Positions 188-17,795 of a DNA stretch of 33,884 bases are shown here, piece after piece. Within the stretch, counting starts at the first letter, position 1. The number at the start of each line of letters is the position of its first letter. The translations under genes were made by a program, and so were the position numbers. Source of the DNA: Rhizobium sp. Q54 (GTDB lineage Bacteria > Pseudomonadota > Alphaproteobacteria > SMXS01); NCBI GenBank assembly GCA_945907245.1, contig CAMDTB010000034.1, positions 1-33,884 of the forward strand, read 5' to 3'. Under the pieces are notes generated by a model that made no database searches, was not told the origin of the DNA, and saw only the letters and a program-made list of their open reading frames with translations.

Positions 188-874
188 ATGAAGAGTGCCA
201 ACAAGTTGATGACGGCTGCCGCGTGTTCGGTGGTCACCGTCGTCTTGGGCGCATCTGCCGCGTTCGGAAACGGGTTCCTCGAGAACCGGCCGTGGCAGTT
301 CGATACCGCCAATGACAAGATTGCCAAGGCCTCGATCGCTGACCTTCGCGAAAAGAACAAGGGCGGCTATTACGATGGCTTCGACACGAACATCAACAAT
401 ACCTACACCACCAACATCGCCGGCGATCAGATCAACTGTAACCTGACCGCATCGGCGATCGGCAATACCGGGTCGAACGGGGTCAGCAGCAACGCCTCGT
501 CTCCGGTGATCGACATGCCGGGCAATATCGGCGCCAACGCGACCGGTAACGTCAGCGACACAGCCACCAATGGCTTCACGCGGTCGAACGGTGACGGCAA
601 CTCCGCCACCAGTACGGGCGGCACCGGATCGGGCAGTTCCGGCACCGCAGGCCAACTGAGCAACACCTCGCAGGGCAACACCAACAGCCCGCAAACTGCC
701 GGGGTGGACAATTCGAGCGTTTCCGGCAGCGTGGACGGCATGAATTCGTCCGGGGGCACGTCGGACGTCGCGCTGAATTCGGAAATGTCCAATATGGATA
801 GCCCGCAGACGGCCTCGGTGGATAACAGCGAAGCGTGCGGCTTCAGTGAATCGGCCGCGGCACCGCTGAACTAG
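188..874 (+). CDS. Small secreted Asn/Ser/Thr/Gly-rich protein, putative CsgG-exported fibre or adhesin subunit
   Basis: This 228-residue protein has a signal peptide (about residues 1-27, hydrophobic core and small residues before the likely cut). The ATG at 188 is chosen because GGAGGG at 175-180 sits 7 bases upstream; a GTG at 182 is too close. After an N-terminal segment beginning N-R-P-W-Q-F, the rest is low-complexity and rich in N, S, T, G and D, with very few charged or aromatic residues. A short unit, SPQTAxVDNS, occurs twice, near residues 167 and 205. A T-A-S-A-I-G-N-T-G stretch resembles the repeats of the large protein at 14121-17795. The next gene is a CsgG-type pore, so export as an amyloid-like or holdfast-anchor-like (HfaA-type) subunit is a reasonable inference. 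I saw no canonical curlin repeat, so the family is uncertain. Confidence 0.75.
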   Translation: MKSANKLMTAAACSVVTVVLGASAAFGNGFLENRPWQFDTANDKIAKASIADLREKNKGGYYDGFDTNINNTYTTNIAGDQINCNLTASAIGNTGSNGVSSNASSPVIDMPGNIGANATGNVSDTATNGFTRSNGDGNSATSTGGTGSGSSGTAGQLSNTSQGNTNSPQTAGVDNSSVSGSVDGMNSSGGTSDVALNSEMSNMDSPQTASVDNSEACGFSESAAAPLN

Positions 875-934
875 GCGGTTAGTCCGGTAGCCGGCCAGCG
901 CCGGTTGAGGGGCAAGGGCAAGAGTGGGAATATC

Positions 935-2248
935 GTGATTACCGGCTACAATTTGTGCAGGAAAATCGTCACCGCCGCAGCGATCGTTTCGCTGACAGGG
1001 TGCATGGCGTCGGTCGATCACTACAAACGAAATTCCGATGAGGCGCCTACGGTCCAGGGCCCGCCCGTCACCGACAACACCACGCCGCTGGAAGGCACGT
1101 TCCAGTGCATGGCGCAGAAAATTCGCGAGAGCGGTCGCAACAGGATTCGCGTCGCCGTCGGTACCGTGAAGGATTACACCGGCAAGTTCAGCGAGTCCGA
1201 GGGCGGCAACCCGATCACCCAGGGCGGCTCGCTCATGGTGATGTCGGCGCTCGGCAAGCTGGGCGACGCGGTGCGGCTGCAGGAACGTTTCGACACGCAG
1301 GTCACCGAACTGGAACTGCGCTACCTCGACCGACGCTACCTGGGCGACGGCTCGGTGCACGAAGTCCGCGGCAAGACCGGCGGCTCGCAGAAGGTTCCAT
1401 GGAAGCCTTATTATGGCGGCACGGTCATCGAGTCCGACTACTTCATCGTCGGCGGCATCACCGAGCTGAACTACAACGTGCAGACCGGCGGCCTGGAAGT
1501 TAACATCGACGGCTTCGGCGGCAAGGGCCGCGTGTTCACCGTCAACGTCGCGGCCGACCTGCGCATCGTCGACACCTCCTCGCTGGAAGTGCTCAAGACG
1601 GTCAGCCTGCAGAAGCAGATCACCGGCTACGAAGTCGGCGCCAACATCTTCAGCTTCTTCAAGAACACCCTGGTCGACGTCAACGCCGGCATGAAGAGCC
1701 AGGAGCCGCTGCAGCTCGGCGTCCGCACCGTCCTGGAACTGGGCGTGCTGGAACTGGTCGGCTCGGTCACGGGCGTCGACGAGAAGCCGCTGGTGAACTT
1801 CGATGGCGTCAATTCCTGCCCGTCGGTCTCCGGCGTTCCGGTCGCCGTCGCGCCGACCGAACCCCCGCCGCCACCGGAAGCGCCTGCTCCGGCCAAGGCC
1901 AGCACCTTTACCGTGTATTTCGCCACCGCCAGCGCGCAGCTGACATCGGAAGCGGAGAAGACCGTCTCCGACGCCGCTGCTGCCGCCAAGGCCGGTCAGG
2001 CCGCGAACCTTCTGCTCGAAGGCCACGCGGACACCCAGGGCGGCGAGCTCTACAATCTGGATCTGTCGCGGCGCCGCGCCGTGGTCGTCCAGGATGCGCT
2101 GGTCAAGGAAGGCATTCCGAAGAACCGCATCTCGCTGGTGTGGTACGGCGAAAGCCAGCCCGCGGTGAAGACCGGCGACAATACCGCCGAGCCGCTCAAC
2201 CGCCGTGTGGTGATCCAGATCCTGGAAGATACCGCGCTGCTGAAGTGA
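935..2248 (+). CDS. CsgG/HfaB-like outer-membrane lipoprotein fused to a C-terminal OmpA domain
   Basis: This is a 437-residue lipoprotein. The signal peptide ends in the lipobox L-T-G-C with the lipidated Cys at about residue 23. GTG 935 is preferred over TTG 905 because AGTGGGA lies just upstream and it gives a normal lipoprotein signal. Residues about 65-295 resemble CsgG, including a V-A-V-G-T-V-K-D-Y-T-G-K strand, a Y-F-I-V-G-G-I-T-E-L segment and an A-D-L-R-I-V-D-T-S-S-L-E-V-L segment. A Pro/Ala linker (about 303-320) leads to an OmpA-like domain (about 323-437) with G-H-A-D-T-Q-G-G, L-S-x-R-R-A and N-R-R-V-V-I motifs, which bind peptidoglycan in that family. CsgG forms the outer-membrane channel for curli subunits, and HfaB is its Caulobacter holdfast homologue. 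The fusion should tether the pore to the cell wall. It lies between two secreted-protein genes, its likely partners. Confidence 0.88.
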   Translation: MITGYNLCRKIVTAAAIVSLTGCMASVDHYKRNSDEAPTVQGPPVTDNTTPLEGTFQCMAQKIRESGRNRIRVAVGTVKDYTGKFSESEGGNPITQGGSLMVMSALGKLGDAVRLQERFDTQVTELELRYLDRRYLGDGSVHEVRGKTGGSQKVPWKPYYGGTVIESDYFIVGGITELNYNVQTGGLEVNIDGFGGKGRVFTVNVAADLRIVDTSSLEVLKTVSLQKQITGYEVGANIFSFFKNTLVDVNAGMKSQEPLQLGVRTVLELGVLELVGSVTGVDEKPLVNFDGVNSCPSVSGVPVAVAPTEPPPPPEAPAPAKASTFTVYFATASAQLTSEAEKTVSDAAAAAKAGQAANLLLEGHADTQGGELYNLDLSRRRAVVVQDALVKEGIPKNRISLVWYGESQPAVKTGDNTAEPLNRRVVIQILEDTALLK

Positions 2249-2288
2249 GGCTCCGGATGCAGCCGTCGCTTAACCAAGGGGAACAGCG

Positions 2289-3503
2289 GTGAGCGTATGG
2301 CGGTTCGGATCGGGGATGGTGGCGATGATGGTGGTGGCGGTCTTCGCCACCGCCGCGCAGGCCCAGCCGCTCAATACCGAAAAGCCGGTCGAGCCGGTCA
2401 CAGGCGATGCCTCCCCGCTCGGCGACGCCGAGGATGACGGCGAGGCCGTTCGCCGGCCTCTTCCAGGCATGACACCGCCGCCGCCCTCGATTACCGGCAA
2501 GCCGGCGCCCGGCGTTCAGTGGGCCGAGCACGTGTCGCCATCCTTCCGCCGCTGGATCGAGGGCGACGTCATGCCCGCTCCGCGCGCGGCACCGGCCGAT
2601 CCAGCCATCCGTAACCAGCCTGACGCCCTCCAGCGCGGCAGTGACCTGAGCAGCGTCGAGAACGCGCTCGACAGGGCTGCCCCGGCGACACCCGACAAGG
2701 GCGGCGTCGGCGCCCGCACCCTGTTCATGAAGCGGGTCAGCCGCGCCCACGCGCGGTCGATCGTGGGTCCGGAAGGGGCACTGATGGGCGCCGAGCTGGC
2801 CGACGGCATTTCCCTGGCGCCGCTGGCGCGCAGCCGCTCGAAAGGCACGCTGTTCGACCGCCCGCTGCCCGAGACCGGAGCGCCGCCCAAGCTGACGACC
2901 GGCCCGCTTCCCGGCGATGGCCCGCTGCAGGATATCCCACCAGAATTACGCGATGACGGCGGCCCGCTGTTCGATCCCGGTGCCGCGCCCGACGAACCGG
3001 CAGACGACAAGGCCTATATGCTGGCTTTGGCCAGGGGCGACCTGGTTGGCGTCGAACTGGGCGACAAGGTCACCGTCGTCCACGTGTCGCAGTTCGCCAA
3101 GGGCGAACGGCCGGAAGGCGGCGAGTTCGTCGTCTATCCACGCGGCCGATTCCGTCCTTGGGGCCCCATCAATTCGTTCGAGAACGTCAACTCGTTCCAG
3201 GCCATCAACGTCGAGCCGCTGCAGAGCGCAGAGGATCCCTCCGACCCGTCGCCGGTGGCGCGCAGTGCCTATTCCATCGGCAACTGGGACCTGCCGGGCG
3301 AGGTGCATCTGTCCCTGTCCGACAGGTCCATGTACGAACGCCGCGAGTGGCTGATCCGCCACCTGCATGACTGCTGCGGCCGCAACTCCGTCACCGTGAT
3401 GCACGATCCGCTGGCGCTCGTCCTGCACTACAACGGCATGTTCTTCGTGCCCGGACAGGTCGCAACGGTGATTCCGCTCGCCCCCGGCATCCGGGCCTGG
3501 TAG
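2289..3503 (+). CDS. Secreted protein of unknown function, third gene of the CsgG-OmpA locus
   Basis: I do not recognise this 404-residue protein. It starts at GTG 2289 with AAGGGG about 8 bases upstream and only 40 bp after the CsgG-OmpA stop, so it is probably co-transcribed. It has a signal peptide with a likely cut after T-A-A-Q-A (residue 25). Residues about 26-245 are Pro-, Ala-, Gly- and Asp-rich and look disordered. From about residue 245 the sequence becomes ordered, with aromatic-rich segments (V-Y-P-R-G-R-F-R-P-W-G, S-F-E-N-V-N-S-F) and an H-D-C-C-G motif near residue 360. The adjacent Cys pair may form or shuttle disulfides in the periplasm. Position suggests an accessory to the CsgG-type exporter, analogous in placement to CsgE or CsgF, but no sequence similarity to these was recognised. 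Confidence 0.8.
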   Translation: MSVWRFGSGMVAMMVVAVFATAAQAQPLNTEKPVEPVTGDASPLGDAEDDGEAVRRPLPGMTPPPPSITGKPAPGVQWAEHVSPSFRRWIEGDVMPAPRAAPADPAIRNQPDALQRGSDLSSVENALDRAAPATPDKGGVGARTLFMKRVSRAHARSIVGPEGALMGAELADGISLAPLARSRSKGTLFDRPLPETGAPPKLTTGPLPGDGPLQDIPPELRDDGGPLFDPGAAPDEPADDKAYMLALARGDLVGVELGDKVTVVHVSQFAKGERPEGGEFVVYPRGRFRPWGPINSFENVNSFQAINVEPLQSAEDPSDPSPVARSAYSIGNWDLPGEVHLSLSDRSMYERREWLIRHLHDCCGRNSVTVMHDPLALVLHYNGMFFVPGQVATVIPLAPGIRAW

Positions 3504-3613: not shown

Positions 3614-4768
3614 ATGCGGATCGGTATCCTGACAGGCGGCGGCGACGTCCCGGGCCTCAATCCCTGCATCAAGGCCGTTGCGACCAGCGCCGCCGAGCTC
3701 GGCTGGGAGACCATCGGCTTCCGGCGGGGCTGGGCCGGTCCGCTGTATATCGATCCCGACGACCAGGAATCGATCGACATGCACACAATGATCCTGGACC
3801 GGGGGCGGGTTCGCGGCATCGACCGCACCGGCGGCACCGTGCTGCACACCTCGCGCACCAATCCGGGGCGGGTGCCGCTGAACGATCTGCCGCCGTTCCT
3901 CGAGGCGCCCTACGCCATCGACAAGAACGCCCGGATCGACTGCACCGACCATGTGCTCGAAGTGCTGGAGAAGCTGGGAATCGGCGCTCTCGTCGCTATC
4001 GGCGGCGATGACACGCTGTCCTACGCCGCGCGCCTGCACAAGGAGGGCGTCAAGGTCATGGCCTGCCCCAAGACCATGGACAACGACGTGTTCGGCACCG
4101 ACTACTGCATCGGGTTCGGCACGGCGGTCAGCCGCAGCGTCGAGGCCATCGACGCGCTGCGCACGCCCACCGGCAGCCATGAGCGCATCGCCGTGGTCGA
4201 GTTGTTCGGCCGCAACAGCGGCGAAACGGCGCTGATTTCGGGCTATCTGGCCGCGGCCGACCGGGTGCTGATCAGCGAGGTGCCGTTCGACGTGGAAAAG
4301 GTTGCCGAGCTGATCATGCGCGACAAGACCGACAATCCCGCGTCCTACGCGATGATCGTGATCTCCGAGGGCGCCACCATGAAGGGCGGCACAACCATCG
4401 AGACCGGCGAAGCCGATCCTTATGGGCACCGCAAGCTGGGCGGCATTGGCGACATCCTGGGCGATGAGCTGAAGCGGCTGACCGGCCAGGGCATCGTCAA
4501 CCAGTCGCTGGCATACCTGATGCGCGCCGGCGCGCCGGACGCTCTCGACCGCATGGTCGCGTCGGCCTACGGTGCTGGCGCAGTGCAGCTGTTGTCCCAG
4601 GGCAAGAGCGGCCTGATGATGGCGATCCGCGACGGCAACTATACCACCGTGCCGGTCGACACCTGCGTCCAGGGCAAGAAGCGCGTCGACGTGCCCGAGC
4701 TTTACGACACGGACCAGTACCGCCCGGTGATCCGCCAGGTGCAGGGCAAGCCGATGTTCCTTTACTGA
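3614..4768 (+). CDS. 6-phosphofructokinase, probably pyrophosphate-dependent
   Basis: This 384-residue protein belongs to the phosphofructokinase family, which phosphorylates fructose 6-phosphate to the 1,6-bisphosphate in glycolysis. ATG 3614 is chosen over GTG 3608 because AAGGAG at 3601-3606 is spaced 7 bases from it. Visible motifs are the N-terminal G-G-G-D-V-P-G-L-N (residues 8-16), G-G-D-D-T (130-134) and P-K-T-M-D-N-D (152-158, with catalytic Asp156). The second Asp in GGDDT and the Lys in PKTMDND are the known marks of pyrophosphate-using enzymes; ATP enzymes usually have GGDGS and PGTIDND. The phosphate donor is therefore inferred to be PPi, making the step reversible. The gene stands alone, and its last 7 bases overlap the end of the convergent PEP-CTERM gene. 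Confidence 0.9.
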
Positions 4769-5463
4769 GGCCGGCGGCGGGCGCCGGATGGCGCCAGCAG
4801 CGCCAGACCCAGAAGCAGCAACGCGCCAGGCTCCGGCACCGGATGGTCAGCTGTCTCAACCGTCATGGCATCCAGATAGAATGCCGAGTCCACGGCTTGG
4901 AAGCTCCATGCGCTCGCGGCGTCGAGCACCGAGAAGTCGCCGTCGCCGAACGAACGCGCAGCCCCGTTCAGCAGGTATTTGCCGTCCTCGATGGGCTTTC
5001 CGTCGGCGCTGGAGAACAGCAGTTTCTGCAGGAACACGTCGCTGCTGAAGGTAAGGGTAAGGATTTCCGCGGTCCACATCCCGGTGTTCACCGCTTCCTC
5101 GCTCGAGGCGCAGTCCTCCTTTTCGCTCAGACCGCTGCAAACGCCCAGGCCGCCCGGTTCGTCCGACAAATAGGCATAGGCCTCTTCCGGGGACTCGACG
5201 CCCTTGACGTCGACCAACTGGCCGGTAGCCACGACCTCCAGTTCCTCGCCTCCCGTGAATGTGGTGCCGATCAGGCCGCCGCCCGACGAGAAAGCGAGGC
5301 CTGCGGGCACTGCGTCCAGTTCGGCAGGGCTCCCGGTGCCGCCCTTGAGCGCATAGGAGGCGAAGTCGAAGTTGACGGGGGTCGCCCCGGCGGACGTAGA
5401 CGCCGCTAGCAATAGTCCGGCGGCAAGGAGACCCCGCCGCAGCCGGTGTATCTCAATCTGCAT
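4762..5463 (-). CDS. PEP-CTERM sorting domain protein
   Basis: This is a 233-residue exported protein. The ATG at 5463 gives a signal peptide (basic [10 protein letters not shown] start, Leu/Ala core, likely cut near S-A-G-A). The C-terminus is a textbook PEP-CTERM signal: V-P-E-P (209-212), a Leu-rich membrane segment, then G-A-R-R-R. In this family the signal is recognised by an exosortase/EpsH membrane protease that processes proteins for the surface or extracellular polymer. The body is acidic, has an internal pair of Cys residues ([10 protein letters not shown]) and matches no enzyme I know. No exosortase or polysaccharide gene is nearby, so it is probably a scattered target of a system encoded elsewhere. 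An upstream ATG at 5547 would only lengthen the N-terminus unnaturally. Confidence 0.85.
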
Positions 5464-5557
5464 TAGCGCCCAGCATCGCTGGCGCAGCGGCCCGCCACGC
5501 CATGAACTCAATCTAAAGTAACATGTCCATCGGGAATGAAGCCACAACAGGTTACTA

Positions 5558-12700: not shown

Positions 12701-14077
12701 GCGTCTCACATTGGCGATGGCGACGCTGGCCGAGCCCTTCACCGACAGCGGCGACAGGACCACGTCACCCTTGGCGGCGATACGCGAGCCGTTGTCGGAC
12801 AACTGCAGGTTGGCGATGGCGATGCGGCCCTTCGCCGGGTCGTAGCGTCCGTCGAGCACCCAGTCGGCGCGCAGGTTCCGCTCGCCCGCGTCGACACCCT
12901 CCAGCGCGCCCTTGCCGTCGAGCGCATAGACCATCGCCGCACCCGAGCCGGTGGCGGTCAGGCTGACGTCGCCCGACGCCTTGCGCGCCGCGAAGCCGTC
13001 GCCCTTGAGCTGTTCGATGGCGATGGCGGCATTGACGTTGGGGCCGTCGCCGGTCTGGGTCACGGTGCCCGCCAGCGATGCCGAGCCATAGGTCCAGCCA
13101 CCCAGCACCGGTTCGAACCAGGCAGCATTGCGGGAGACGATCGAGAAGCGCGGCGACAGCATGGCCTGCCGGTCGGCCAGGCTTCCCGCCAGCCTTATCT
13201 CGGCGCCCTCGTTGACGATGCTGGCGGTGTAGGCATCGGGCATGCCGTCCTTCAACCTGAGATCGAAGACGACGCGCGGCGCGCCGATCAGTGCCGTGGT
13301 CTCGTCCGTGGGCAGGAACGGGCGCGGGTCGAGCATACCCTCGATATGCAGCCGGTCGGTGACCGTGATGTCGAGCGCGGCAATGGAGGTGTCGCCGCGC
13401 CTGCCGTCCAGCCGCCCGCGCCAGTTCTTCACCGATCCCGAGCCGTCGAGGACGAGAGAAATGTCGCCCTGCTCGCCCGGGAACAGGAATGCGCCCAGGC
13501 CCTGGCCAGCCTTGCTGACGAGCCTGCCGTCCAGCACCAGCCGGTCGTCGCCCGGATCGTAGTCCACGGCGAGGCGGATATACTCGCCCTGCGGATCCTG
13601 CGGCGCGAGCGCGAGGCGGAGTTCAACCACCGGATCGGTCGTCCACCGTCCGGCGCCCACCAGGGTAAAAGCGGTGGGCGAGCGCTCGAAGCGGACCTCG
13701 TCCACCTTCAGCCGCTCGAGCCGCACGTCGACTGGCAGCGTAGGCAACTCGGTGGGCAGCGGCTCGTCCGGGCCGTCCGGCGGCGCCGCGGCGATCAGCA
13801 GCCGCTTCGCGGTCAGCGCCTCGACCCGCACCTTTCCGGCCAGCAGGCCCAGATGGCGCCAGCGGAGGGCGATGTCTTCGGCGACGACCGTGGCCTTGCC
13901 GCGTTCGGCGATCGTCAGCCGCCGGATGACGACATCGGAAAGCGGGTCACCTTCCAGGCCGTCGACGGTGGCCACGGTGCCGGTCGCCTGATCGCTCAAC
14001 GCGTCCTCGACGATGCCGGCGATGACGCCGTTGAAGGCGCCGACGCGTACCAGCACATACATCAGGACGACCACCAT
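9797..14077 (-). CDS. tamB: TamB-like translocation and assembly module protein, 5' end probably truncated
   Basis: About 1426 residues from the in-frame ATG at 14077. TamB is a periplasm-spanning beta-taco protein that works with the Omp85 protein TamA or in lipid transport to the outer membrane. The long body has alternating Gly/Ala/Asp beta-strand sequence. The last 300 residues form the DUF490/TamB domain, with D-P-V-I-T-A-R-A, P-E-M-P-Q-D-E-I-I-S-R-V-L-F-G and a terminal V-Q-Y-K-L-D-Y. The N-terminus is abnormal. The signal anchor is only a short hydrophobic stub (M-V-V-V-L-M-Y-V-L-V), there is no ribosome-binding site, and upstream codons are the antisense of the repeat-protein gene. 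The tamA gene that normally precedes tamB is absent. The gene therefore looks truncated at a junction near 14.08 kb. ORF extension to 14551 is spurious. Confidence 0.85.
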   Translation of the reverse strand: MVVVLMYVLVRVGAFNGVIAGIVEDALSDQATGTVATVDGLEGDPLSDVVIRRLTIAERGKATVVAEDIALRWRHLGLLAGKVRVEALTAKRLLIAAAPPDGPDEPLPTELPTLPVDVRLERLKVDEVRFERSPTAFTLVGAGRWTTDPVVELRLALAPQDPQGEYIRLAVDYDPGDDRLVLDGRLVSKAGQGLGAFLFPGEQGDISLVLDGSGSVKNWRGRLDGRRGDTSIAALDITVTDRLHIEGMLDPRPFLPTDETTALIGAPRVVFDLRLKDGMPDAYTASIVNEGAEIRLAGSLADRQAMLSPRFSIVSRNAAWFEPVLGGWTYGSASLAGTVTQTGDGPNVNAAIAIEQLKGDGFAARKASGDVSLTATGSGAAMVYALDGKGALEGVDAGERNLRADWVLDGRYDPAKGRIAIANLQLSDNGSRIAAKGDVVLSPLSVKGSASVAIANVRRWVDAGVRGGVDADGSFEWQPDSGRLMVRAKGAGKGLKMADARLSALLGPSPTFRLMLDDPAGRGQGELYGAVAGAQVTASLKGRIGETIDAAYEARFANIANIVGDGALKAAGPVTIAGTLTGDTGSPDVTLRTALAQASLSGVRITGLTLSAEAADVVAAPRGRIDAAFAMDGEPMAAAIPFVFDENGAWRSDPIELTGKSASLSGELAAASLGAPMAGRLDLRLSGRGVLTALAGTPAAGTVNGTVTLDPEGDAQGLRFDVTVAKASFATGRETAVTVASAQLKGDVAIGEALDVRRITLDGKDIVYDRAKLASLDATITPSGGGLSLAASAKGDFEGPLSLSLKGRADRAMLAAPNTITLDSLDGTIAGQKIALSAPAMAVLAEGRTDIGPVRLSYNGAPLELQATLRDSGSTARISGKDLDLAALSVLVQGQDVAGKLTIDGQIDFTGGVPRGTAQLQIANLIVEDTLEHRPVDIKGNVSLLDGRVKGGLNLDTRGERKLDLTLDLPVARGVKGPFALAVEVDKPLTMTIKGNAELANLWPLTGAYEHILGGRATVDARVAGSIANPTLNGNFAIAGMTYRNLSTGTRLEAANLRFVLKDSLLELPSTNATDGSKGSIVLSGWVKPLAPGGMQADISAQFTKARILKLRDMTARATGQIQYTQDKDGALLKGEAAINEAEYTLNAKASDDFVKLYVVELNRPPGLISLPEKPSERAFKTRMRINVTADNRVFVRGRGLDSEWRGQVRLRGTTDQLAMQGRVDLVKGEFDFAGRRFVLQDGSRIELLGGTDIDPVITARAVYSVTSLSAEIALTGRASNPQIKLSSNPEMPQDEIISRVLFGQGKQNLSAFEAAQLAAAVASLGSSGSGFDVIGKLRGAFTLDRLTVGTLARPGADDEEDAGKPVIRGGKYITKNIYIEAGSATEEEDAQSVSVDINLTKNLSVGTEATTTGNQKFKVQYKLDY

Positions 14078-14120
14078 CACCGGTCCGGGAATCGATCCAG
14101 ACGAGGTTGCCCTCGGCTTT
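14078..14120. other. Junction where tamB and the repeat-protein gene both lose their 5' ends
   Basis: Within about 40 bp, minus-strand TamB homology ends (to the left) and plus-strand repeat-protein sequence begins mid-repeat (to the right). No promoter, ribosome-binding site or signal peptide for either gene fits in the gap. No insertion sequence or target duplication is visible. A deletion, inversion or assembly join would explain it. Confidence 0.55.
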
Positions 14121-17100
14121 ATGACCCGTGCTTGGCACTCGAACCTGGTGGCGAGCGCCGCGACGGACATCGCGCTGGTAAGCAACCAGCATGTCGAGGA
14201 CAGCACGGTGCAGTCGACGACCACGGGCAGCTTCGTGGTCGACGCGGCCAATATCGGCGGTGCCGGCGGCGCGGTCACCGACTCGTCGATCAGCCTCTCG
14301 GGCAACAGCGCCAGCGCGCTGACCGTGGGCAACGCGGTGGGCGAGAACGTCATTGAGGTGGCCGACGCGGTCACCTTCGCGGCCTCGGTTGGCCTGGTGA
14401 GCTTCCAGCTGGTCCAGGACAATGCCAACGGTGCCGGCTTGGTCATGTCGGCCGTCGTAGAGCCGAGCGACGATGACATCGACATCGCCATCGTCGACCT
14501 GACCTCCAACGCCCTGACGACGACCGGTTCCCGGTTCGACATCGACGGCAACGCGATCAGTGCCCAGGTTTACGGCAACCTGGTCGCGGGCGACACCAAC
14601 GCCATTCGCATCGACGCCGTGACCGTCGGCGACAACGACATGGGCGCCCGCACGGGCGCCAACTCGTCCATCGACGTCAGCATCGGCGCCGTCGAGGCGG
14701 TGGTCGACCGCAACATCGCCACCGACGACCTGCCGCAGACCACGGTGAACTCGGGCTTCTCGCTGATCAGCGACCAGAGCTTCGAGGACTCGGGCCTCAA
14801 CCCGGTCATCGCCAGCATCAGAGGCGATGGGGACCTGATCGACGTTAACATCGGCTCTAACGACCCTGCGGCTTTGGTCGAACGCGTGGACGTGTCGGCG
14901 AGCGACAACGGCATCACCGCCCGGGTCAACCTGAACACCGCCAGCAACGCCATCGAGATCGGCCAGAACAGCAATGTCGAGACGCTCGATGCGAACATCA
15001 CCCTGGTTAACACCCAGACGTTCTGGGACGAGGAACTCTTTCCCAACGGCTCCGGCCAGATCCAGGTCGACATAAACGGCCAGATCGACATCGATGTCGA
15101 TGCCGGCGCGACCACCATCACCGACGTCAATGTGGAAGCCAACGGCAATGCGTTCCTCGGCGAGGCGCGGATCAGCGGCGCCACCAACACCATCGCCGTG
15201 TCCACGCAGACCCAGGTGGTCACCGGCCTGATCGCCGGCGCCGACGTCCAGTCGGTCAATATCGGCGACGGCAAGAGCACGGTCCGCTCCGAGATCGGCC
15301 TGGTCAACGACCAGGATTTCAACGGCCTGATATTCGGCGGCTCTTTGTCGACTGCCGGTGTGTCTGTCGAGTTGAACGACAACGACATCGATGTCGATAT
15401 TGACACGGACGATGGCTCGCTCGCCGACAGCGTCGTCGAGGCCGACGGCAACAGCCATCGCGCGCTCGCGCTCGGCAACGACGCCACCAATGCGCTGTCG
15501 CTCGACGCCGGCACCATCGATCTGTCCGACGCGCTGATCGGCGGCGGCGCCGGCAACGCACCGCTCGCCATCATCAGCAACGCCCAGCGCGGCAGCGATG
15601 CCGACGACACACCGGCCGGGTTCGCCATTTTCGCTGCAAGCATCGACAACAGCGACATCGAGGTAGACTTGAACGGCGTCGATAACGATATCGACAATGT
15701 ACACGCCTCGGTCGACGGCAATCAGTATGTGGCGCTCGCCCGGGTGAACAACGGCAACAACGTTCTCGACGTCACCGGCGGCACCTACGAGCCGGTGGCC
15801 GCCACCACGCCGCTGGTCCAGGCCCTGAACATTCCGGTAACCGGCGGTGAGATCGCGGCCGAGGACCTGGCGTTCGGCGTCGCTTCCTATCAGCTGAACG
15901 GCTATGACGTGTTTGCGGTCGGCGAGGACATCGAACTGGAGGTTTCCGCCGACTCTCTGGGCGTTCAGATCGACTCGAGCAGCTTCTCGGTCAGCGACAA
16001 TACCCTGCTGTTCCAGGCCCGCAGCAACGACAACATCAACGACGCCTCGGTGGCGTTCACCACCAACAACGTCTCGGCCTTCGTCGCCAACGTGCAGAAG
16101 CCTGGCTCGGACGGTGTCCAGGCGGTCGTTATTGGTGAAGACATCACCCTCCGGATCGATGGCGAGGACGCCACCGACACCACGGTGGATGTCGATGGCA
16201 ACAATGTCTCGCTGATCGGCACGATCAACCGGGCGCTGCTCAACACGCTGAGCCTGGATGGCAACAAATTGCTCAGCGGCACCGGCACCACGACACCGTC
16301 GGCGCTGATCGATCCAGCCGGCGCCGGCGCCGACGTGTCCGTGGTCTCCGACGCCAGCGTGATGAACGTCCAGGGCGAGGACTCTGTCGGCTCGGGTTTC
16401 GATGAAACGGTCTTTGTCTTTGGCGAGGACATCGATTTCTTCGTCCGTTTCGAACAGTTCGACAGCGGTTCGGTCTCCATCGACAACAACCTGCAGCTCA
16501 ACCAGGGCATCATCCACAGCGCCAACAACCTGCTCGGCATGGGTGCGTCCTACGCCTACAACGAGGCCACCGGCGCGGTCAGTTTGGCGGCGACGGGCAA
16601 TGTCGCCAATATCTCCGCCACCGGCTCGATCATCTCGCAGCAGATTGTCACCGTTGACAGCGGCGTGTTCGTCCAGGGCGAGGACACCGACCTGCAGATA
16701 GACGTCGACGACATCTCGTCGACCGATGCCGTCGCCCTCAGCGTGTCGAACAACGACCTGCTGAACCAGGCCATCGGCGGCACCGTGCTCAACCGCATGG
16801 ACGTGCTGGCCGGCGTCACCATTACCGGCGTCGTCGCCACGCCCACGCCGGAGATCGGCGATCTCTCGGTGGGCAATCCGCTCGTCGCCAACGCCGACTT
16901 CAACATCGTCAACTACCAGGCCGGCGAGACCGAGGTGTTCGCCTTCGGCGAGGACAGTGAACTCAGCATCGAGATCGAGTCGGACGCGGTCGGCGATTCG
17001 CTCACTGTCAGCGGCAACGAGCTTGAATCCAGGGCAACCGGCTTCAACGCGTCCAACATCATCGTGCTCAACGCCGGCGCCGCCAGCGACGCCACCGCCA

Positions 17101-17795
17101 ACGTCGTCAACAGGCAGGATATCGCCAACGCGACGGTCCAGGCGCTCCAGGACGAGAATCCAGACCTTATCGATCCGCAACCAATCGCGCTGTTCATCGA
17201 CGCCAACGGCAACGGCGCCGACGGCAGCAGCGTCACGCTGGACGACAACATGGTCCGCAGCGTGGCCAGCGGCAACGTCGCCCTGAACGCGATCTCGACG
17301 ACCGCGGGCGCGACCCTGCAGGAATCGTCGGGCGCCGGCATCACCATCGATCCGGCCGGCCCGGTGTTCCTGGCGCCGACCGACAGCGATTACGCGGTGC
17401 TCAACTACCAGAGCTTCACCGACGCCGAGGCGCTGTCCGGCACCAATGAGGTCGGCATCTATATCGATGGCTTCAGTGGTGCGACCGGTGTCGACAACAG
17501 CTCGATGAGCGTCAGCGACAATACCGTGACGGCGGCCTCCACCGCCAACCGGGCCGAGAACCATCTGGTGCTCAACACCGGCACGTTCCAGCACCCGAGC
17601 GCGACCGTGGGCAACCTGCAGTCGACCAGCGGGGCGACCATCTCGGCGACCGCCAGCAACGTGACCATCGGCATCGGCAACGGCGACAACATCGCCGCGA
17701 CCAGCAACAACAGCTCGTTTACGGTGCGTGGCAACCAGATCGGCGCCACAGCCATCGGCAACACCGCCGTCGGCAGCATCACCAGCGGCAACTGA
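14121..17795 (+). CDS. Giant acidic beta-repeat protein, putative surface adhesin, 5' truncated
   Basis: About 1224 residues from ATG 14121 (an in-frame ATG at 14013 lies inside tamB). It is very rich in Asp, Asn, Ser, Val, Ile, Ala and Gly and almost free of Cys and Lys. It is built of degenerate modules of roughly 70-100 residues: a N-Y-Q-like strand, a V-F-x-x-G-E-D box, a short acidic strand, an S-V-S-[DG]-N-x-L segment, then A-x-G-N-x-x-N-x-I. Five GED boxes start at 15921, 16134, 16422, 16677 and 16947. This suggests an elongated, perhaps calcium-binding, beta-solenoid. There is no signal peptide, membrane segment or autotransporter barrel; the first residues (A-W-H-S-N-L-V-A-S) are already mid-repeat. 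The end (I-G-A-T-A-I-G-N-T-A) resembles the small protein at 188-874, hinting at the same CsgG-type route. A good terminator follows. Confidence 0.72.
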   Translation: MTRAWHSNLVASAATDIALVSNQHVEDSTVQSTTTGSFVVDAANIGGAGGAVTDSSISLSGNSASALTVGNAVGENVIEVADAVTFAASVGLVSFQLVQDNANGAGLVMSAVVEPSDDDIDIAIVDLTSNALTTTGSRFDIDGNAISAQVYGNLVAGDTNAIRIDAVTVGDNDMGARTGANSSIDVSIGAVEAVVDRNIATDDLPQTTVNSGFSLISDQSFEDSGLNPVIASIRGDGDLIDVNIGSNDPAALVERVDVSASDNGITARVNLNTASNAIEIGQNSNVETLDANITLVNTQTFWDEELFPNGSGQIQVDINGQIDIDVDAGATTITDVNVEANGNAFLGEARISGATNTIAVSTQTQVVTGLIAGADVQSVNIGDGKSTVRSEIGLVNDQDFNGLIFGGSLSTAGVSVELNDNDIDVDIDTDDGSLADSVVEADGNSHRALALGNDATNALSLDAGTIDLSDALIGGGAGNAPLAIISNAQRGSDADDTPAGFAIFAASIDNSDIEVDLNGVDNDIDNVHASVDGNQYVALARVNNGNNVLDVTGGTYEPVAATTPLVQALNIPVTGGEIAAEDLAFGVASYQLNGYDVFAVGEDIELEVSADSLGVQIDSSSFSVSDNTLLFQARSNDNINDASVAFTTNNVSAFVANVQKPGSDGVQAVVIGEDITLRIDGEDATDTTVDVDGNNVSLIGTINRALLNTLSLDGNKLLSGTGTTTPSALIDPAGAGADVSVVSDASVMNVQGEDSVGSGFDETVFVFGEDIDFFVRFEQFDSGSVSIDNNLQLNQGIIHSANNLLGMGASYAYNEATGAVSLAATGNVANISATGSIISQQIVTVDSGVFVQGEDTDLQIDVDDISSTDAVALSVSNNDLLNQAIGGTVLNRMDVLAGVTITGVVATPTPEIGDLSVGNPLVANADFNIVNYQAGETEVFAFGEDSELSIEIESDAVGDSLTVSGNELESRATGFNASNIIVLNAGAASDATANVVNRQDIANATVQALQDENPDLIDPQPIALFIDANGNGADGSSVTLDDNMVRSVASGNVALNAISTTAGATLQESSGAGITIDPAGPVFLAPTDSDYAVLNYQSFTDAEALSGTNEVGIYIDGFSGATGVDNSSMSVSDNTVTAASTANRAENHLVLNTGTFQHPSATVGNLQSTSGATISATASNVTIGIGNGDNIAATSNNSSFTVRGNQIGATAIGNTAVGSITSGN

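Follow-up and report, generated by a model that had tools for sequence, protein, structure and literature searches.

An HfaB-type pore fused to an OmpA domain in a probable adhesin export and anchoring locus of Rhizobium sp. Q54

Does a CsgG-like pore gene that is fused to a peptidoglycan-binding domain and flanked by genes for two secreted proteins belong to a curli-like amyloid system or to a holdfast-anchor (Hfa) type of adhesin system? This question is raised by three codirectional genes of Rhizobium sp. Q54, referred to here as genes 1, 2 and 3 and followed by a phosphofructokinase gene. They lie in the stretch of DNA that we analyzed (the window), which comprises the first 33,884 bases of contig C34 in a 136-contig assembly (genome G000). 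The contig begins 187 bp before gene 1, and the upstream context was therefore read from relatives. A preliminary description of the window had placed the pore gene between a small secreted protein rich in Asn, Ser, Thr and Gly and an unrecognised secreted protein, and open reading frames (ORFs) for all three were found at these places. We compared the locus with a family sample of ten genomes (G000-G009, of which G000 is the window's own), a class sample of 289 genomes and a phylum sample of 398 genomes, the loci compared across genomes being the best matches of each search only. Our results suggest that the locus probably encodes an Hfa-type adhesin export and anchoring system, in which a pore tethered to peptidoglycan would export large adhesins together with a small assembly protein.

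A profile search of the pore region, named in the preliminary description as the way to check it, matched both CsgG and HfaB. Gene 2 matched the Pfam CsgG family (PF03783) with an expectation value (E) of 5e-15 and 55.8 bits, against a gathering score of 20.8, and aligned with the NCBIfam HfaB model (NF037935) over the full length of the latter, with residues 28-291 corresponding to model positions 3-263. A profile made from 14 HfaB-type rows also matched the solved CsgG (E 8.2e-23). In CsgG, the constriction is formed by Y51, N55 and F56; in the region of this loop, the HfaB-type profile is 3 residues shorter than CsgG and lacks all three of these residues. Judged from these alignments, the predicted pore of gene 2 is of the holdfast-anchor (HfaB) branch and not of the curli branch.

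The C-terminal part of gene 2 matched Pfam OmpA (PF00691) with 74.4 bits, against a cut-off of 27.2, so that the earlier picture of a lipoprotein whose CsgG-like core runs through a Pro-rich linker into an OmpA domain was borne out; the domain is intact and the lipobox reads LTGC. The signatures GHxD and NxxLSxxRA were found in 6 of 6 OmpA-fused proteins of the family, gene 2 having GHAD and NLDLSRRRAVVV. Among 71 distinct CsgG/HfaB-like ORFs of the compared loci, only six carried an OmpA domain (E<=1e-3), all of them from the G000-G009 family. The OmpA fusion is real, and an assembly artefact was ruled out because the fusion was found in six genomes. Elsewhere, canonical HfaB proteins have tails that are Pro/Gln-rich, charged or short, and the pore of G087 has a Ser/Thr/Pro tail. 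The pore of a Variovorax plasmid was considered as a second fusion, and was counted as degenerate in view of a tail that is only OmpA-like (Pfam E 0.044, below the cut-off) and without the signature. A search of open-licence PubMed Central found no OmpA-fused HfaB or CsgG in titles or the openings of abstracts, which is weak evidence, as most subscription papers and preprints lie outside it.

The position of this pore was examined in a tree of 39 CsgG domains, for which the program gave a long-branch warning for Variovorax, Loktanella and Vibrio and a further warning that the joining of the G175 pair to branch III is possibly false. Gene 2 fell in a clade with the family, the Variovorax plasmid, Arenicella and G087 (support 89/99), which stands beside the canonical HfaB clade; the remaining groups were branch III, with small and large secreted companions of its own, and the distant pair from G175 and G271. 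The HfaB model matched in 32 of the 289 class genomes (15 above cut-off) and 48 of the 398 phylum genomes (11 above cut-off), and the HfaA model in 10 of the 289 (9 above cut-off).

Several observations on other pores were made along with the tree. The Variovorax plasmid locus (L046, CP063168.1 216058-236765) is flanked by two EAL-domain proteins and a Crp/Fnr regulator, neighbors that suggest control by cyclic di-GMP. A further HfaB-type branch (L038, L034, L039-L041, L113-L116 and L048) includes five HfaB matches in G024 and one on a Vibrio alginolyticus plasmid; its loci have a pore, often a protein that starts with FD..NW.W or a similar sequence after its signal peptide, and a small protein that is probably homologous to HfaA, as judged by profile comparison. 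In G175 and G271 (L117 and L118), the gene for a small protein is followed by a distant CsgG-like gene, and the small protein of G175 carries EKAEGGYYDGFDT, resembling the core of gene 1. The source genome itself has a second CsgG-family gene on contig C28 (L001), which lacks an OmpA domain and adjoins a secreted protein that looks Hcp-like.

The survey of the neighborhood, which the preliminary description had also proposed, showed the three genes together and in order in 6 of the 10 family genomes (G000, G001, G002, G005, G006 and G007), and in G004 a contig end cuts the operon, leaving gene 1 and part of gene 2. With this and the profile matches, neither of the two outcomes named beforehand as refuting the preliminary description was obtained. 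Identity to the window across the family loci compared was 61-96% for gene 1 and 70-96% for gene 2; for gene 3 it was 50-82% in G001, G002, G005 and G006, and 32% over approximately the last 160 residues in G007. Because the three genes are conserved across the family loci, chance ORFs are very unlikely. In G003, only the last ~262 residues of gene 3 were found, and the ~900 bp before this remnant (L085 1-910) match no compared sequence; the remnant reflects operon loss, insertion or misassembly. G008 and G009 gave no gene 3 match and no convincing HfaB match (E 2.3e-4 in G008).

The preliminary description overlooked a set of much larger proteins, rich in N, S, T, G, A, D and V and mostly of 1,680-1,870 amino acids (aa), which we refer to as giants and which are likely, as putative cargo, the main load of the pore. 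A giant stands directly after gene 3 in G007, G002 and G005; the interval is 188 bp in G002 and 186 bp in G005, where the proteins have signal peptides and lengths of 1,731 and 1,732 aa, respectively. The Arenicella locus has a relative of 1,597 aa ahead of gene 1, and the pore of the Variovorax plasmid is followed by a protein of 1,566 aa named "S-layer family protein". In G087, two relatives of 362 and 404 aa, 79% identical to each other, lie upstream in divergent orientation, the nearer one separated from gene 1 by ~1.6 kb that include another ORF; an 863-aa ORF that had been taken for the G087 surface protein was dropped as unrelated when the profile search gave these two. That profile was built from 12 giants of the G000-G009 family alone and has a strong composition bias; it matched the proteins of Variovorax (E 1.4e-40), Arenicella (E 1.5e-25) and G087 (E 5.6e-9 and 2.4e-7), and at E<=10 it matched neither gene 1 nor any of three shuffled sequences.

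A search with the window's copy of the giant matched 9 of 13 genomes, with 2-13 matches each, some of them fragments, in seven genomes of the same genus (G000 included) and in G007, and one weak match in G008. Each of the seven genomes with a gene 3 match (the G003 remnant included) has a giant no more than ~12 kb downstream of it in the same orientation; because most of these belong to a single orthologous region, they are not independent cases. Of the 289 class genomes, five matched the giant C-terminal profile (G000, G002, G003, G005 and G087) and five had gene 1, with four genomes having both. The probability of such an overlap by chance was 9e-8 when counted by genome and 1.2e-4 when counted by genus, the latter being the fairer figure because the genomes are related.

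The C-terminus of the giants gives a further link to HfaB-type pores. HfaB branches I, II and III contributed 3, 16 and 10 putative cargo proteins, respectively. The motif [AST][AS]xGN lies within the C-terminal 40 residues in 26 of these 29, where its frequency in the rest of their sequence would predict 3.2; the three without it, one protein of G000 and the G087 pair, have closely similar variants. Adding ten more proteins, seven of which have the motif, brought the count to 33 of 39; here the misses were one giant of G006 and two proteins that neighbor a distant pore in Loktanella. The computed P for the count, 3e-25, is not usable at face value because the motif was picked post hoc and many rows are related; the weight of the finding rests on its occurrence in three branches of predicted HfaB-type exporters. 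A similar unit is internal in HfaA and in gene 1 (SAIGN).

In gene 1, the signal peptide is followed, in order, by a conserved segment ENRPWQFDTANDKIAKASIADLREKNKGGYYDGF, GDQINC, SAIGN and two SPQTAxVDNS units. No Pfam or NCBIfam match was obtained at E<=1, the profile gave only a match of E 0.4 in the PDB, and the AlphaFold2 model was unusable, with a mean predicted local distance difference test (pLDDT) score of 32. Arenicella (38% identity), G087 and, as recognized by motif, the Variovorax plasmid have a relative of gene 1 ahead of their HfaB-type gene. The small proteins of branch III, compared with HfaA after removal of signal peptides, gave 88.6% and a score of 40.0 vs 17.4 for the best of 40 shuffles, and those two therefore look homologous. 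Identification of gene 1 as HfaA was tried through these branch III proteins and rejected, since the link stood at 94% with signal peptides and at 7-11% once they were removed. By hhalign, gene 1 scored 23.4 against them at a probability of 7% (11% without G175), with 40 shuffles reaching at most 13.6; without the Loktanella row the score was 17.2 and the probability 0.9%, and the comparison run in reverse aligned a different stretch. There is a weak hint that ENRPWQF may be common to gene 1 and the branch III small proteins.

Gene 3 gave no match in Pfam or NCBIfam (E<=1) or in a PDB profile search, self-BLAST reported no internal repeat, and its AlphaFold2 model was likewise unusable (mean pLDDT 34). 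It was seen only in the G000-G009 family, to which the search was confined, and none stands beside the pores of Arenicella, Variovorax or G087.

The window's own giant is incomplete, being short of ~540-640 N-terminal residues as judged from the G005 relative. At window positions 14070-14081, the start of tamB on the minus strand meets the middle of the giant gene. Compared with G005, ~4 kb that encode a TamA-like protein and the giant's N-terminal region are missing here. The two points that bound the gap have ACCACCATCACC, or almost that sequence, in common, and a search of the rest of G000, run without a positive control, did not find the missing stretch. The junction is either a deletion or an assembly misjoin. 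The other two giant matches of G000, on contigs C56 and C104, are also short, with open frames of 933 and 461 aa.

Table 1. Features of the locus and of the giant gene, in window coordinates.
Feature	Position	Strand	Description
Gene 1	188..874	+	228 aa, secreted, N/S/T/G-rich; signal peptide
ENRPWQF motif of gene 1	281..301	+	Directly after signal peptide; E, R, W, Q and F invariant in 8 rows
Gene 2	905..2248	+	HfaB/CsgG-type lipoprotein with OmpA domain; 447 aa from TTG 905; alternative start GTG 935
Lipobox Cys33 (LTGC)	1001..1003	+	Cys33 invariant in 14-row alignment
HfaB-type CsgG domain, residues 28-291	986..1777	+	NCBIfam NF037935, E 1.5e-67
Pro-rich linker of gene 2	1778..1915	+	Tail comparison
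OmpA domain, residues 338-433	1916..2203	+	Pfam PF00691, E 9.5e-21; signatures GHAD and NLDLSRRRA
Gene 3	2289..3503	+	Secreted, 404 aa; conserved C-terminal part with CCG motif
Giant, C-terminal part	14013..17795	+	1,260-aa ORF; N-terminal part missing at junction
C-terminal unit FTVRGNQIGATAIGNTAVGSITSGN of giant	17718..17792	+	Conserved

Beyond the operon, a PEP-CTERM protein gene (window 4762-5547, minus strand) adjoins the phosphofructokinase gene and has a relative only in G006 among the loci compared.

How might these parts work together? In the proposed mechanism, the HfaB domain of gene 2 would form a CsgG-like ring in the outer membrane, which would export gene 1 and one or more giants as unfolded chains. 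The gene 1 product would remain at the pore exit and act there in assembly or anchoring. The C-terminus of CsgG is on the periplasmic side, and OmpA domains, up to one per subunit, could clamp the ring to peptidoglycan and pass the pull on the adhesin to the wall. Gene 3 may be an accessory factor particular to the G000-G009 family.

The arrangement resembles HfaA-HfaB-HfaD of Caulobacter in having the full domain of an HfaB-type pore, a small secreted protein before it and a large surface protein beside it. Unlike that system, it has an OmpA domain on the pore, an extra gene 3 and surface proteins of up to ~1,870 aa with 2-13 matches per genome; gene 1 is not detectably HfaA and the giants are not detectably HfaD. 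It shares with the curli CsgG system the fold, the lipoprotein nature of the pore and a presumed export of small proteins rich in polar residues, and differs from it in the OmpA fusion, in the loop and in the curlin repeats and CsgF, which were not found in the family genomes searched. The OmpA domain, with its peptidoglycan-binding signature, is like that of Pal/YiaD-type lipoproteins, although here it is fused to a pore domain in one chain.

An alternative is that the locus makes a curli-like functional amyloid, with gene 1 as the main fibre subunit, gene 3 replacing CsgE and CsgF, and the giants unrelated. The match to the solved CsgG and a gene 1 that is small, polar and has two SPQTAxVDNS units would fit this, whereas gene 2 matches HfaB more closely, several lineages have giants next to the pore and the constriction residues are lacking. 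Curlin repeats (PF07012) were found in 0 of 6 family genomes, with the E. coli control positive, and the earlier description of gene 1 as non-curlin was supported. CsgF (PF10614) was found in 4 of the 289 class genomes and in none of the four from the G000-G009 family among them. The earlier proposal that the locus replaces CsgE and CsgF was not upheld, the closest relatives being HfaB-type (CsgE was not searched), and we consider a curli-like system quite unlikely. As one study notes, CsgG is part of a larger family, and csgE was missing from the Alphaproteobacteria studied there and csgF also from about half of those genera (PMC3521004). Gene 2 might instead form only a wall-anchored ring or tether and no translocon, with gene 1, gene 3 and the giants leaving the cell otherwise. 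Both the OmpA fusion and the altered loop could suit pure anchoring; the CsgG core, however, is kept across the HfaB branch and cargo-like genes co-occur with it, which makes this reading unlikely as well.

Several results do weigh against an Hfa-type export system. Gene 2 scored 227.6 bits against the 300-bit HfaB equivalog cut-off, and is therefore called HfaB-type and not an HfaB equivalog. Gene 1 did not match the HfaA model (NF037934) at E<=1, nor, once signal peptides had been removed, did hhalign align it convincingly with HfaA (score 13.1, probability 0.2%). The giants did not match the HfaD model (NF037936) at E<=1, and at E<=10 their profile matched 0 of 3 HfaD and 0 of 4 branch III surface proteins. 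Most giants in each genome stand far from the pore, and the nearest one in the window is truncated and lies 10.5 kb from the locus. The overlap of gene 1 and giants has two exceptions, G175 (weak gene 1 match, E 7.9e-8, and no giant match) and G003, where giants are present although no HfaB or gene 1 match was found. The G003 case would also suit the idea that the neighborhood reflects descent alone, the genes being close in one family without joint function, as would the fact that all six genomes with the complete operon belong to one family and that gene 3 was seen only in that family, to which its search was confined. However, pairs of gene 1 and pore, and large proteins adjacent to the pore, recur in Arenicella, Variovorax and G087, and descent alone is very improbable.

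An Hfa-type export and anchoring system thus remains the reading that we prefer. A broader form of it, which we offer tentatively and hold to be doubtful, is that HfaB-type pores make up a wide class of adhesin exporters apart from curli, whose cargo would be marked by a C-terminal strand-GN-strand unit, that the wall-anchored pore of this family serves interchangeable giants, and that gene 1 is an assembly factor at the pore exit that combines CsgF-like and HfaA-like roles. The [AST][AS]xGN motif is a candidate export or anchoring tag and offers a means of predicting cargo for HfaB-type pores. Finally, the fusion of an HfaB-type pore to a peptidoglycan-binding domain suggests that load is carried to the wall, and may show how bacteria fix their adhesives firmly to the cell.

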